NCBI GenBank assembly: GCA_947428935.1
Contig: CANENS010000008.1
Span: 1-58,335 of the forward strand
Direction: 5' to 3'
Source: an uncultured Candidatus Saccharibacteria bacterium
GTDB taxonomy: Bacteria; Patescibacteriota; Saccharimonadia; Saccharimonadales; Saccharimonadaceae
DNA length: 58,335 nt
This document shows positions 821-38,763 of the stretch, piece after piece. Position 1 is the stretch's first letter, and every line of letters starts with the position of its first letter. The notes beneath the pieces are model-generated. The model ran no database searches, was not told the DNA's origin, and worked only from the letters and a program-made list of their open reading frames with translations. The translations under genes were made by a program, and so were the position numbers.

Positions 821-1024
821 CATTATTACTGTCTATGCTCGAGCAGCGGAGGGGGAAGGCGAACCAGCGAGCGTCGTTGTGGGACGGGTAGACGCCAGAC
901 GCATTGAAGCGGAGGAAGTACGCATGACGAAGATCAGAAGAATTAGTCCGCGACGACCATCCGTAACCGTAGATGCCAGAGTACCCCAAACGACCGCCAT
1001 TGATATAGACGAACCCGCTGCGAA
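821..1024 (-). repeat. Cassette A: lectin-like variable C-terminal module
   Basis: One of eight dispersed cassettes. On the minus strand it begins with TTCGCAGCGGG (R-S-G) and ends with the GC-rich tract TTCCCCCTCCGCTGC (F-P-L-R-C). It encodes RSG-F-V-Y-I-N-G-G-R-L, a YGYGWSS core, then AYFLRFNASGV and RWFAFPLRC. Its 3' tail reads SSIDSN instead of LARQ-stop, a variant shared only with cassette E. No start codon, ribosome-binding site or N-terminal protein body is attached. The fold assignment (C-type-lectin/FISUMP-like end) is from motif resemblance. The head end abuts a promoter element at 1032. Confidence 0.75.
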
Positions 1025-2603: not shown

Positions 2604-2808
2604 TTCGCAGCGGGCGCGTCAATATCGATAACGGTCGTTTGAGGTACTCTGGCCTCTACGGTTACGGATGGTCGTCACGGGCTTATTCTTCTGATGTCAC
2701 TCAAGCATACTTCCTCAACTTCTTTGCGTCTGGCGTCAACCCGTCCAACAGCTACGATCGCTGGCATGGCTTCCCCCTCCGCTGCCTAGCTAGATTACAG
2801 TAATTATA
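2604..2808 (+). repeat. Cassette B: lectin-like variable C-terminal module
   Basis: Plus-strand copy with head TTCGCAGCGGG and end F-P-L-R-C-L-A-R. It is nearly identical to cassettes A and C in framework codons (GCGTCTGGCGTC, CCGTCC, CGCTGG, TTCCCCCTCCGCTGC) but differs in many intervening NNC/NNT codons. The stop is at 2801-2803, one codon later than usual because of a local change before the stop (ATTACAG instead of ACAG). The ATG just upstream is out of frame, so no translation start is visible. Confidence 0.75.
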
Positions 2809-4203: not shown

Positions 4204-6027
4204 ATGTTAGAAAAAATACGAAATATTGCGATTATTGCACATGTGGATCACGGCAAAACTACGCTGGTGGATGGACTCTTAAAACAGTCGCACACCTTTC
4301 GTGAAAACCAAGCCGAAATGTCTCAAACCCTGATTATGGACTCCATGGACCAGGAGCACGAGCGGGGAATTACTATTACGGCGAAACAAACCTCGGTTTT
4401 TTACCAGGATTATAAGATTAATATTATTGATACGCCAGGGCACGCTGATTTTTCCGGTGAGGTCGAGCGGACGTTGAATATGGCGAATGGGGTACTTTTG
4501 GTGGTAGATGCGCAAGAAGGGCCGATGCCGCAGACCAAATTTGTCTTACAAAAAGCCCTGGATCTGCATTTGAAGCCGGTCGTGATTATTAATAAGATTG
4601 ACAAGCCAGCGGCGCGGATTCCGGAGGTGGAGAGTGAAATCGCTGATCTTTTCCTTGAGCTCGCCACCGACGAAAGCCAGCTCAATTACCCGATTTATTA
4701 TGCGATTGCACGCGACGGTAAGGCTGGAAAAACTACGGAGCTAGATGACGATTTGCACGTGATTTTTGAGTCGATCATCAATGATATTCCGGCGCCGAAA
4801 GTTGATCCAGATGCTTCGAAGGGTGCGCAGCTGTTGGTAGCGGCGTTGGCCAGCGATAGCTATTTGGGAAAATACGCGATCGGGAAGATTTTTCGCGGGA
4901 AGTTGAAAAAAGGCGAGAACGTCAAGATGATTCAGGCTAGCTCTGACGGAACAGCAAAAATCTTGCCGGGAAAAATCGAGAAAATCTTTACTTATAAGGG
5001 TTTGGGGCGTGAGGAAGTCACGGAGGCGGCCGCTGGCGAGATTGTTTCAATTACCGGCATCGCGGCAGCTAATATCGGCGATACGATTGCGACTGGTGAG
5101 GACCCAGAAGCTTTACCGACCATTGAACTCGAACCGCCAACGCTTAGTATTTATATCGGCCCGAACACATCGCCGCTCAAAGGGCAGGAAGGGGAATTTA
5201 CGACTTCGCGCCAGATTGCGGAGCGGCTAGAGCGGGAGCTTGAGACCAATATCGCGCTGAAGATCGTCCCGGATGGTTTAGGCTATAAAGTCTCGGGGCG
5301 TGGAGAATTACATCTGTCGGTTTTGATCGAAACCATGCGGCGCGAGGGCTATGAGCTAGAAACTGGGCGCCCCGAGGTAGTTTATAAAGAAATTGATGGC
5401 CAAAAATGTGAGCCGGTCGAGGATTTGACGATCGAGGTAGAGCCAGAATTCGTCGGTGCGGTTTCCCAAGAGCTCGGCATCCGCAAGGCGGAGCTAAAGA
5501 ATCAAGAATTGACCAGCACTGGTAGTACCCGCTTTGTTTATGAAATTACAACCGCGGCTTTGATTGGTTTGCGCAATAACCTTTTGACGGCCACTAAAGG
5601 CACGGCGATTATGTCCTCGATTCCGCACGGCTATAAGCCAATTGATAGTAAATATAAACCGGAGCGAAATGGGGCTCTGATCTCCTTCGAATCTGGTACT
5701 TCGACGGCTTATGCTTTGGATGCTGCTCAGGCTCGCGGCACCCTTTTTATCCCGCCAGGTGTGCCAGTTTATCAAGGTATGATCGTGGGCCTTTCGAATA
5801 AAAAAGAGGATCTCGACATCAATATTTGCAAGGAAAAGCAGCTGACTAATATGCGTACGCACGCATCGGACGGCGCGATTCAACTAACGCCTTATACCCA
5901 ATATTCGCTGGAACAGTGTATTGACTTTTTGCTGGATGATGAATTGCTCGAAGTGACGCCGAAATCTTTGCGCCTACGCAAGCGCGAGCTCGATCCCGTG
6001 AAACGCAAACGCGCCGCGCGGAGCTAG
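4204..6027 (+). CDS. typA: Ribosome-associated GTPase TypA/BipA
   Basis: Translational GTPase that acts on the ribosome during large-subunit assembly and stress adaptation. The 607-residue product has the normal family length. G1 is AHVDHGKTTLVDGLL near residue 12, the switch region ERGITI follows, G3 is DTPGHADF and G4 is NKID. Domains II, III, V and the TypA-specific C-terminal domain (GTSTAYALDAAQARG, VYQGMIVG, NMRTHASD) follow in order. The start ATG opens the usual LEKIRNIAIIAHVDHG N-terminus. It is transcribed alone, between a divergent small gene and a terminator. Confidence 0.97.
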   Translation: MLEKIRNIAIIAHVDHGKTTLVDGLLKQSHTFRENQAEMSQTLIMDSMDQEHERGITITAKQTSVFYQDYKINIIDTPGHADFSGEVERTLNMANGVLLVVDAQEGPMPQTKFVLQKALDLHLKPVVIINKIDKPAARIPEVESEIADLFLELATDESQLNYPIYYAIARDGKAGKTTELDDDLHVIFESIINDIPAPKVDPDASKGAQLLVAALASDSYLGKYAIGKIFRGKLKKGENVKMIQASSDGTAKILPGKIEKIFTYKGLGREEVTEAAAGEIVSITGIAAANIGDTIATGEDPEALPTIELEPPTLSIYIGPNTSPLKGQEGEFTTSRQIAERLERELETNIALKIVPDGLGYKVSGRGELHLSVLIETMRREGYELETGRPEVVYKEIDGQKCEPVEDLTIEVEPEFVGAVSQELGIRKAELKNQELTSTGSTRFVYEITTAALIGLRNNLLTATKGTAIMSSIPHGYKPIDSKYKPERNGALISFESGTSTAYALDAAQARGTLFIPPGVPVYQGMIVGLSNKKEDLDINICKEKQLTNMRTHASDGAIQLTPYTQYSLEQCIDFLLDDELLEVTPKSLRLRKRELDPVKRKRAARS

Positions 6028-10825: not shown

Positions 10826-11026
10826 TTCGCAGCGGGAACGTCGATATCGGTAGCGGTCGTTTGAGGTTCTCTGGCCTCTACGGCTACGGATGGTCTACGC
10901 GGGCTAATTCTTCTGATCCTCGTTATGCATTCTACCTCGCCTTCAATGCGTCTGGCGTCGGCCCGTCCAACAACGGTCTTCGCTGGAACGGCTTCCCCCT
11001 CCGCTGCCTAGCTAGACAGTAATATA
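10826..11026 (+). repeat. Cassette C: lectin-like variable C-terminal module
   Basis: Encodes RSG-N-V-D-I-G-S-G-R-L-R-F-S-G, YGYGWSTRANSSD, AFYLAFNASGV and RWNGFPLRCLARQ-stop (11020-11022). An in-frame ATG at 10810 gives a 70-codon ORF, but it has no ribosome-binding site and only five codons before the cassette, so expression is doubtful. It is nearest in sequence to cassettes A and B. Confidence 0.75.
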
Positions 11027-14310: not shown

Positions 14311-14512
14311 TATTACTGTCTAGCTAGGCAGCGGAGGGAGAAGGCGTACCAGCGACTACTGCCGCTAGATGGAGCTACACTAGACATACTGAAATCTAGA
14401 ACGTATGCGTGACTGGAGTCGGAGCGAAAAGTTCGTGATGACCATTCGAAGCCGTGGAAGCCTAACCACTTTATAGACTTATCGGATTCTATATCGATAA
14501 GCCCGCTGCGAA
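14311..14512 (-). repeat. Cassette D: lectin-like variable C-terminal module
   Basis: Minus strand, head TTCGCAGCGGG, ending F-S-L-R-C-L-A-R-Q-stop. It is diverged from A-C in framework (IKWLGFHGFEWSSR, AYVLDFSMSSV, SSRWYAF) and has TCC instead of CCC in the 3' tract, as in cassette F. The head points at the pepN promoter. Confidence 0.7.
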
Positions 14513-18268: not shown

Positions 18269-18285
18269 AACCCACCCGCTGCGAA
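18269..18285 (-). repeat. Solo head of a cassette
   Basis: The 17-bp stretch AACCCACCCGCTGCGAA is identical to the head end of cassette F but has no body attached. It sits ~30 bp before element R4 in the same arrangement as the complete cassettes A and F. Confidence 0.6.
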
Positions 18286-24537: not shown

Positions 24538-24739
24538 TTCGCAGCGGGCGCCTCGATACCGAAGTAAATGCGTCTTTGAAATGGTCTGGCATCAATAGTT
24601 ACACATGGTCGTCGAGGGCTAGTAGCGACACCCGATTTACTTATCATCTATCCTTTGACCCATCTGGCGTCAACCTGTCCAACAGCAACAGTCGCTGGAA
24701 CGGCTTCCCCCTCCGCTGCTCGAGCATAGACAGTAATAA
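24538..24739 (+). repeat. Cassette E: lectin-like variable C-terminal module
   Basis: Starts one base after the iscU stop. The 5' half is strongly diverged (RSG-R-L-D-T-E-V-N-A-S-L-K-W-S-G). The 3' half (TCTGGCGTC, GTCCAAC, CGCTGG, TTCCCCCTCCGCTGC) is almost identical to cassettes A-C, and the tail is the SSIDSN variant of A. It therefore looks mosaic. Confidence 0.7.
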
Positions 24740-34090: not shown

Positions 34091-34287
34091 CTATTACTGT
34101 CTAGCTAGGCAGCGGAGGGAGAAGCCGCCCCAGCGGTTAACACTATTGGATGAGGTGACACTGGATCTACCGAATACGAGACCGTAGGCAGAATCAATGT
34201 TAGAACCGGACAACAATGACCAATTGCGGCTATCAATGCCAACCCATAATAGTTTGCCGGGGTTGCCGGCAACCCACCCGCTGCGAA
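34091..34287 (-). repeat. Cassette F: lectin-like variable C-terminal module
   Basis: Minus strand: RSG-W-V-A-G-N-P-G-K-L-L-W-V-G, NWSLLSGSN, SAYGLVFGRSSV, NRWGGFSLRCLARQ-stop. The TCC variant in the 3' tract is shared with D. The head end abuts element R5. Confidence 0.7.
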
Positions 34288-37400: not shown

Positions 37401-37694
37401 AAGCATAAAGGAAATGCTTGGTTCTGGATTTTTCTGAAAGAAAAATCCAGAAAGGCCGTCGTCGGACTTTGTCCTAGGCGCTGGGCGTCACCTCATATAA
37501 AAAATAAATTATGTTTATTTTTTATGATTCGGATTTCTACAGCGTTCATTAACGCGATTCTTTTTGAAAAGAATCGCTACCAGCTACATCGTCGGTTCAA
37601 AAAAGAAAATAATTTTTCTTTTCCTCACCTCCTAGCCTTTTATGCTTAGCATTACGCACTGCGTCAGCTCAAAATAGAAAACAAGTTTTCTATT
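37401..37694. repeat. Series of six perfect short hairpins
   Basis: Stems at 37401-37419 (AAGCAT), 37424-37450 (CTGGATTTTTC), 37497-37525 (ATAAAAAATAAA), 37554-37577 (GCGATTCTTTT), 37601-37622 (AAAGAAAA) and 37674-37693 (ATAGAAAAC), each with 2-7-nt loops, separated by CT-rich segments such as CCTCACCTCC and TCTCGCTTCC. All arms differ but the layout repeats. The series leads directly into cassette G. Confidence 0.65.
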
Positions 37695-37712
37695 CTCTCG
37701 CTTCCTTGCGCG

Positions 37713-37917
37713 TTCGCAGCGGGAACGTCCAAATTAGTAATGGATATTTGAAGTACGCCAAGATTGGCGGTTTCGGCTGGTCGTCACTGTCCAATGCTTC
37801 TAGCATTCATCGAGCATATAACCTTGACTTTAATGCATCCAGTGTTTATCCATCTAGTAATGGTAGCGATTATCGCGCAAACGCTTTCCCCCTCCGCTGC
37901 CTGGCTAGACAGTATAT
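37713..37917 (+). repeat. Cassette G: lectin-like variable C-terminal module
   Basis: Encodes RSG-N-V-Q-I-S-N-G-Y-L-K-Y, GGFGWSSLSNASS, AYNLDFNASSVYPSSN and FPLRCLARQ, then runs past the usual stop to end at 37934-37936 because TAATA is TATATA here. A TTG at 37706 could start a 76-codon ORF but has no ribosome-binding site. It has many synonymous differences from A-C. It faces cassette H. Confidence 0.7.
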
Positions 37918-38012
37918 AATATATATTCAGGCATAAGCATAGTGAATAATTATGATCTCTCGCGTTGGTCTAATTACGAATTACTTTTGCTTTAATTTTA
38001 AAAATATGCGGA

Positions 38013-38119
38013 GCTAAGGCTAAGCTTTTTGGGGCTTGATGGTGGATATTACGTCATCTAAAGATTCCGTAATATCCAGCCAAGAAGTCAAGCTTCATAG
38101 CCCCAAAATACCTTAGCCT
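38013..38119. repeat. Long hairpin at the centre of the G/H inverted pair
   Basis: Imperfect stem: TGGATATTACG (38043-38053) with CGTAATATCCA (38068-38078), TTTTGGGGCT with AGCCCCAAAA (to 38108), and GGCTAAG with CTTAGCC (38112-38118). It sits midway between cassettes G and H; flanking sequence TAATTACGAATTACTTTTG and CAAAAGTACTTCGTAATTA continues the symmetry. Confidence 0.7.
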
Positions 38120-38255
38120 TAACCCCCTACAACTTTTTCTAAATCTAAACCAAAAACAAAGAAGCATAAGTTCCAAAAGTACTTCGTAATTAGCCTCAAA
38201 CGTTATCATAAATTTTTACGTATAAGGCTATTTTCGCTAATGATGCTTACAGTTA

Positions 38256-38455
38256 TTATTACTGTCTAGCCAGGCAGCGGAGGGGGAAACCGTTATAGCG
38301 AGCACCATCTCTATAGGCGGAGTCGGCATCATCCTTGCCGAAAGATAAGTGAAAAACAAAGTTGCTCTCGAGATCTGGATTTTTTGACCAAATTACCCCG
38401 TGCTGCCCCAAGAGCCTATAGCGTCCAGCGCTTTTGCTAACATGCCCGCTGCGAA
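38256..38455 (-). repeat. Cassette H: lectin-like variable C-terminal module
   Basis: Minus strand: RSG-H-V-S-K-S-A-G-R-Y, VIWSKNPD, VFHLSFGKDDADSAY and RYNGFPLRCLARQ-stop. The 3' tail CTGGCTAGACAG is shared with G. It is the most diverged body. Confidence 0.65.
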
Positions 38456-38668: not shown

Positions 38669-38763
38669 AGTTCGGAAGAACATTTAGGCTAACTGCGAGC
38701 CAACAATAAGTTGAGAGCTTATATGTTCAAAAAGTCGCCATCAGTGCTAAGGGGCGATTTTTT
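38669..38763 (+). ncRNA. Candidate small RNA, ~95 nt
   Basis: Bounded by the promoter at 38634-38662 and a TCGCC / GGCGA hairpin with TTTTTT at 38735-38763. No credible ORF lies within. It is AT-rich with little internal structure. The following interval 38764-38867 has no gene. Confidence 0.45.

Follow-up and report, generated by a model that had tools for sequence, protein, structure and literature searches.

Two short repeat cassettes, here called G and H, face each other tail to tail at positions 37713-38455 of a 58,335-nt stretch of DNA from an uncultured Candidatus Saccharibacteria bacterium (the window, i.e., the whole stretch that was analysed). The genome is a 1.10-Mb draft in 27 contigs, and positions outside the window are given by contig, e.g., C2. 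The two cassettes are separated by a spacer that contains a long palindromic repeat. The features of the locus are:

37584..37712, plus strand: 5′ flank of G, partly alike to the 5′ flanks of the silent cassettes C2:30354 and C10:49525
37713..37913, plus strand: cassette G, promoterless C-terminal half-domain (RSGNVQISNGYLKYAKIGGFGWSS...NAFPLRCLARQ) with border and tail motifs and an open frame
37713..37723, plus strand: 5′ border of G, TTCGCAGCGGG, the exact genome-wide border
37888..37913, plus strand: 3′ tail of G, CCCCCTCCGCTGCCTGGCTAGACAGT, tail motif
37970..38193, no strand assigned: palindromic repeat between G and H, MITE-like, diverged copies of which are found next to other cassettes (outer arms 37970-37989/38174-38193; core arms 38010-38034/38102-38126; apex 38043-38059/38062-38078)
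38261..38286, minus strand: 3′ tail of H, CCCCCTCCGCTGCCTGGCTAGACAGT, tail motif
38261..38455, minus strand: cassette H, promoterless C-terminal half-domain (RSGHVSKSAGRYRLLGQHGVIWSK...NGFPLRCLARQ) with border and tail motifs and an open frame
38445..38455, minus strand: 5′ border of H, TTCGCAGCGGG, the exact genome-wide border

The original prediction described this layout as an inverted pair around an extended hairpin, and its elements, i.e., borders, tails, spacer arms and hairpin, are all located where they had been placed. The 5′ ends of the two cassettes (37713-37728 and 38440-38455, 16 nt) are 88% complementary, and the tails (37873-37914 and 38260-38301, 42 nt) are 90% complementary. 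The symmetry continues in the spacer, where the outer arms of the palindrome match at 19 of 20 positions. Their ungapped inverted-repeat score is 17; among 300 dinucleotide shuffles of the spacer the mean is 8.7 and the maximum 15, and none is as good. The spacer (37914-38260) folds as DNA at -55.5 kcal/mol, compared with -26.8 +/- 3.7 for shuffled sequences (z -7.8, 0 of 100), and the core of the central hairpin (38005-38130) folds at z -7.3 (0 of 200 shuffles). Within the window, G and H also have in common the tail variant CTGGCTAGACAG in place of CTAGCTAGACAG, as had been noticed; the variant is also found at C16:5664 and is not exclusive to the pair. Directly 5′ of cassette G, about five AT-rich hairpins are found in a row with a spacing of ~50 nt (37420-37700).

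The symmetry is limited to the cassette borders and the spacer, and is absent through the cassette interiors. The interiors of G and H are 50% identical, and the mean over all cassette pairs is 58%. No meaningful homology was found between the outer flanks of G and H, the best match having an E value of 0.01 over 29 nt. An inverted duplication, as had been suggested, is thus unsupported, because the parts in common are only the two borders that all ~127 cassettes of the genome have. G and H would then have arrived at the locus separately, or have been overwritten there separately. The 5′ flank of G belongs to a family of three members, which align over 102-129 bp with 78-89% identity; the other two, at C2:30354 and C10:49525, hold different cassettes.

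The palindrome at 37970-38193 is a member of a small repeat family of its own. Its 20-nt terminal arm has seven matches in the genome at up to 3 mismatches: the two arms in the window, one match in each of C4, C13, C14 and C23, in every case next to a cassette, and, in C11, a weak match. An additional copy of the palindrome is present at C1:23531, and the copies in C1, C4, C13, C14 and C23 lie ~30-200 bp 3′ of a cassette tail. Cassettes do not as a rule have strongly folding sequence next to them (over 123 cassettes, mean z is -0.54 downstream and -0.64 upstream, p = 0.49), and the palindrome therefore does not belong to the standard cassette. The folding at the G/H spacer allows a cruciform in principle, but no sign was seen of the recombination substrate that had been proposed, and that role has no support, since diverged copies of the palindrome, a repeat in its own right, also lie next to unpaired cassettes. 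The tail-to-tail layout can probably be read as two independent cassettes plus a separate repeat, and would need no special function.

The cassettes belong to a family that is dispersed singly or in twos and threes across the genome. A cassette is ~200 bp long, with the exact 5′ border TTCGCAGCGGG and a conserved 3′ end of CTCCGCTGC followed by CTAGCTAGACAGTAATAATA. There are 116 exact copies of the 5′ border and 106 copies of the tail motif in the genome; the reversed control sequence gave 0 in both cases. Extraction of the stretches around border and tail matches yielded 127 complete cassettes, a number that includes the template repeat itself (described below), and 10 that are truncated at the 3′ end. 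Information just upstream of the 5′ border is at most 0.22 bit, which makes this edge a sharp one, and conservation at the 3′ side runs ~22 nt past CTCCGCTGC. The short inverted sequence GCAGCGG is found at both cassette ends. Neighbouring cassettes less than 1 kb apart have the same orientation in 24 cases, are convergent in 6 and divergent in 2. Some cassettes are repeated in tandem, ~30 bp apart, and in a few the interior carries deletions. About 11 copies include more of the target gene, most of them 144 bp from a common second 5′ breakpoint. An initial count of 12 'expressed' genes by a shared upstream motif was rejected, as one is full length and the others are these longer cassettes.

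The family has two main tail types genome-wide, CTAGCTAG (101 cassettes) and TCGAG (22 cassettes). The tail of the TCGAG type, CTGCTCGAGCATAGACAG, lacks an in-frame stop (e.g., in the cassettes at 830-1024 and 24538-24732 of the window), and a cassette with this tail could not terminate a protein at the usual position. This tail type is absent from the full gene, and a similar variant is present in one long copy. At least 11 of the 54 contig ends of the genome are within 500 bp of a cassette, which may represent either assembly breaks caused by the repeat or real variation in the population. Searches of the window with Rfam and with a tRNA scan gave no match.

The sole full-length target gene is at C2:77864-79605. 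It has a 578-aa open reading frame that ends in a cassette; the N-terminus resembles a signal peptide by eye, and a match to the domain PF09603 (Fib_succ_major) is weak. A structure prediction for the target protein of a relative has a mean pLDDT of 45 and was set aside. Each cassette encodes RSG...(~55 residues)...LRC, which corresponds to the C-terminal ~60 residues, the C-terminal half of the domain. Silent cassettes sit in short open frames without the remainder of the gene. G and H match profile A2 with E values of 9e-27 and 4e-21, respectively.

The frame is intact in 126 of the 127 cassettes, and stops are present in two. Lengths differ from that of the template in 52 cassettes, and in 51 of these by a multiple of three; cassette G, for example, has the length of the template plus two codons. 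Among the 68 cassettes whose identity to the template is below 70%, a single one contains a stop, whereas ~63 would be expected to have one if the order were random. The cassettes are thus maintained as coding sequence.

Comparison of loci points to exchange of cassettes. A stretch of exactly 199 bp is identical in the full gene and in the silent cassette C4:11268; it starts 3 nt ahead of the 5′ border and closes with the tail, and the sequences on either side of it are unrelated. Conversely, the long copy C11:28071 is identical to the full gene at 143 of 144 positions upstream and 316 of 320 downstream, but its interior is unrelated to that of the full gene from directly after TTCGCAGCGGG and equals that of the silent cassette C2:30961. 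Many other pairs of loci have one flank at least 85% identical and interiors at ~50-60%. Near-identical flanks with unrelated interiors, together with the 199-bp identity from border to tail, imply that interiors have been replaced between fixed borders. By this evidence cassette interiors appear to be swapped between loci, the expressed gene included. A search for mosaics by long exact shared runs found one pair only and was uninformative. The suggestion that the G/H locus takes part in recombination therefore holds in so far as cassettes are recombining units, but the exchange consists of replacement of interiors between loci and not of inversion between arms.

The genome also carries a reverse transcriptase (RT) gene, at C2:96888-98030. 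The 392-aa product has IGNLTSQ and YVDD motifs and matches an RT profile made for the genus at E 2e-150; Pfam RVT_1 missed it in this genome, a false negative that the genus profile recovers. By sequence, its best match among solved structures is the 8ub7 group 'Reverse transcriptase' (E 1.6e-22), with Drt2 and group II RTs far behind. 8ub7 is the enzyme of the BPP-1 DGR, and by these matches the RT is of the DGR type. A 344-aa open reading frame lies directly 5′ of it (both at about 96.9-99 kb of C2); as a candidate for an accessory, Avd-like protein it had no Pfam or PHROG match.

The template repeat, in trans, is an AAC-rich sequence at C3:7333-7514 that lies outside genes and on a different contig from the RT. 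On its C3:8020-12486 side it adjoins open reading frames that by eye are PilC-, PilT- and PilB-like, i.e., of type IV pilus assembly. Thirty-six cassettes have the same length as the template and no more than 45 differences from it. In these near-template cassettes, 43.3% of template A positions are changed, compared with 10.2% of C, 12.5% of G and 13.8% of T. In the four nearest cassettes, 71-80% of the differences are at adenines, which make up 27% of the template. A T to C marker at position 169 distinguishes template from cassettes in all 36, and an IMH/IMH*-like difference is present at the 3′ side (TTCCCCC vs TTTCCCC in 36 of 36, and CTAGCTAGACAG vs CTAGCTAGTTCCAG). Cassettes of the window other than G and H are listed with respect to the template:

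830..1024, minus strand: near-template cassette with TCGAG tail and 29 differences from the template, 23 of them at adenines
2604..2798, plus strand: near-template cassette with 29 differences from the template, 18 of them at adenines
10826..11020, plus strand: near-template cassette with 25 differences from the template, 20 of them at adenines; identity to C2:70859 is 92.6%
14315..14512, minus strand: cassette, template repeat length plus 3 nt
18275..18285, minus strand: 5′ border of a truncated cassette, border motif
24538..24732, plus strand: diverged cassette with TCGAG tail
34096..34287, minus strand: cassette, template repeat length minus 3 nt

Between the first two of these, at 1283-2479 on the minus strand, is a 398-aa open reading frame whose match to KwaB, from the Kiwa defence system, is marginal (PF16162, 27.7 bits with a cut-off of 26.3).

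Relative to this template, the only one found, there is no adenine bias in G, in H or in the present cassette of the full gene, whose interior is not recognisably derived from it. Over 162 positions, H has 97 differences from the template, of which 30% are at adenines. G and H are thus members of the diverged part of the family. Near-template cassettes also share differences at other bases, e.g., T16C, T70G and C92G, which imply that another or an older template existed. The conserved 3′ end of the cassette exceeds the homology to the template by ~14 nt. The dispersed copies therefore seem to have been seeded from the gene and not directly from template cDNA. The same RT family is found in Saccharibacteria relatives, at locus L133 and, in Candidatus Nanosyncoccus alces, at locus L141; repeat pairs beside the RT there mismatch only at adenines of one copy (21 of 21 mismatches at L133 and 6 of 6 at L141).

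A hairpin downstream of the target is typical of studied DGRs and is required in the BPP-1 model (PMC3240598). General downstream hairpins as DGR target sites were rejected here, as downstream folding of the 123 cassettes is no stronger than upstream folding. The only counterpart, a 10-bp GC stem with the loop GTGA (not GRNA), is confined to the flank that the full gene shares with two copies.

A cassette protein profile was run on 60 genomes of the genus, and cassette-rich genomes number eight. Matches are at least 104 in the genome analysed here and 104 (G024), 91, 87, 86, 82, 72 and 55 in the others, i.e., 82-104 in G013, G024, G064, G067 and G074, 72 in G030 and 55 in G078; each of the remaining genomes has at most 34. 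The matches listed in relatives are mostly within short open frames. Similar archives, of 55 to more than 100 cassettes, are thus present in seven other species of the genus. An RT match was found in seven of the eight cassette-rich genomes, the exception being G030. The exact 11-nt border occurs 0-1 times per genome in other species, and the border sequence is therefore specific to the lineage, although cassettes are still present at the protein level.

The G/H locus lies 5′ of rpoB, and the KhpA-rpoB interval was compared in eight relatives, as the original prediction had recommended. Four have no cassette, two have one, and two (G024 and G064) have a tail-to-tail pair. The G024 pair is downstream of a conserved motif, and in the window the motif falls on the other side of the pair; the two pairs therefore arose separately. 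The motif, GAACAT..AGGCTAACTGCGAGCCAAC...AAGTTGAGAGCTTATATGTTC followed by a terminator-like hairpin, is free of genes (window 38670-38763; G024, L220 1324-1412), and looks like a small structured RNA, without an Rfam match. In G064 (L227, ~5009-5410, in rpoB orientation) an open reading frame of the size of a gene lies between the two tail-to-tail cassettes; it presumably resembles the C-terminal nuclease domains of CdiA type.

Beyond the genus, loci of Bacteroidales (L148-L158, L161, L164, L166, L171 and L190, from Alistipes, Rikenella, Paludibacter and others) have up to 13 cassette-like open reading frames per locus, on the strand of a related RT and mostly 5′ of it. These are possible cassette arrays in cis. 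As support for the present system they were dropped, since a pair with adenine bias was found in only 2 of 14.

We consider it probable that G and H are silent members of a cassette archive dispersed over the genome, that this archive supplies a single expressed gene, and that a DGR diversifies it. In such a system, template RNA would be reverse transcribed with errors at adenines, and the mutagenised cDNA would overwrite variable repeats, silent ones too, to give new variants. Cassettes would then be copied into the expressed gene by a replacement resembling gene conversion between the two conserved borders, and each replacement would alter the C-terminal half of a lectin-like surface domain. 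The broader proposition, that across the genus a DGR writes both to a target gene and to more than 100 unexpressed variable repeats, which are swapped into a single surface-protein gene, is held with less assurance, though we lean towards it.

Homologous gene conversion alone, as in vls or pilS, might shuffle silent cassettes, with the retroelement a bystander. Replacement of cassettes between loci is seen directly, and many cassettes, G and H among them, have no adenine bias. We nevertheless regard this as unlikely, given the excess of changes at adenines (43% vs 10-14% at other bases) relative to one AAC-rich repeat, the DGR-type RT in the genome, and the all-adenine mismatch pairs found with the same RT family in relatives. 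Quite improbable, too, is a selfish short element that spreads itself, retro-dispersed or MITE-like, and carries a gene end by chance. The sharp borders at many loci, the tandem copies with their ~30-bp spacers, the inverted GCAGCGG ends and a second class of longer cassettes, which have in common a 5′ breakpoint of their own 144 bp upstream, would all suit such an element, but a selfish non-coding unit would not need diverged copies to stay in frame and free of stops, and the expressed gene is identical to a silent copy.

That G and H form an inverted duplication, or an invertible or cruciform unit whose arms recombine and flip the 345-bp centre, is very improbable. The significant inverted repeats, the strong folding and the tail-to-tail pairs 5′ of rpoB in two related species are consistent with it; the half-identical interiors, the unrelated outer flanks, the palindrome beside unpaired cassettes and the separate insertion in G024 are not, and no recombinase family was matched among the neighbouring open reading frames tested. 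Decaying pseudogene fragments from duplications of the target gene would account for the ~10 cassettes without a 3′ end, the few internal deletions and the ~11 copies with more of the gene, but are hardly credible given uniform borders in 127 copies, of which 126 are in frame and two have stops.

The proposed DGR-diversified archive resembles known DGRs (BPP-1 type, multi-VR and remote-VR) in its DGR-type RT, its AAC-rich template, the adenine-specific differences of the nearest cassettes, and a putative variable repeat that forms the 3′ end of a gene whose product has a Fib_succ_major-like domain; such domains were previously reported as DGR targets (PMC4159848). It differs in having ~127 cassettes and one full-length gene, template and RT on different contigs, and no general target hairpin. 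Published multi-VR DGRs mostly have 2-4 VRs in open reading frames (PMC3521204), and one case, reported to have dozens of pairs, shows few adenine substitutions (PMC6642488). With silent-cassette antigenic variation (Borrelia vls, Neisseria pilS, Treponema tprK) it shares one expression site, many promoterless in-frame cassettes and interiors replaced between conserved borders. In contrast to these, the cassettes here are dispersed, more numerous (compare 15 for vls, PMC3585125, and 53 for tprK, PMC10063172) and, as proposed, diversified by a retroelement. Shufflons and invertible C-terminal cassettes, e.g., pilV, likewise provide alternative C-terminal ends, some in opposite orientation; here no recombinase is found among the neighbouring open reading frames tested, and exchange takes place between distant loci, with inversion not seen.

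No description of silent variable-repeat archives was found in the open-access literature (subscription journals and preprints lay outside the search). Surveys restricted to the neighbourhood of the RT overlook such an archive, and Roux et al. state that remote targets are beyond detection by their survey approach (PMC8144416). Known DGRs are write-over mutators, in which every round wipes the preceding variant. If the present reading is true, the dispersed archive would be the cell's memory of earlier variants, and would unite mutagenic retrohoming with silent-cassette switching, the two routes to hypervariable surface proteins known in prokaryotes. It would, moreover, hint at a way for a host-dependent lineage with a small genome to maintain a large binding repertoire.
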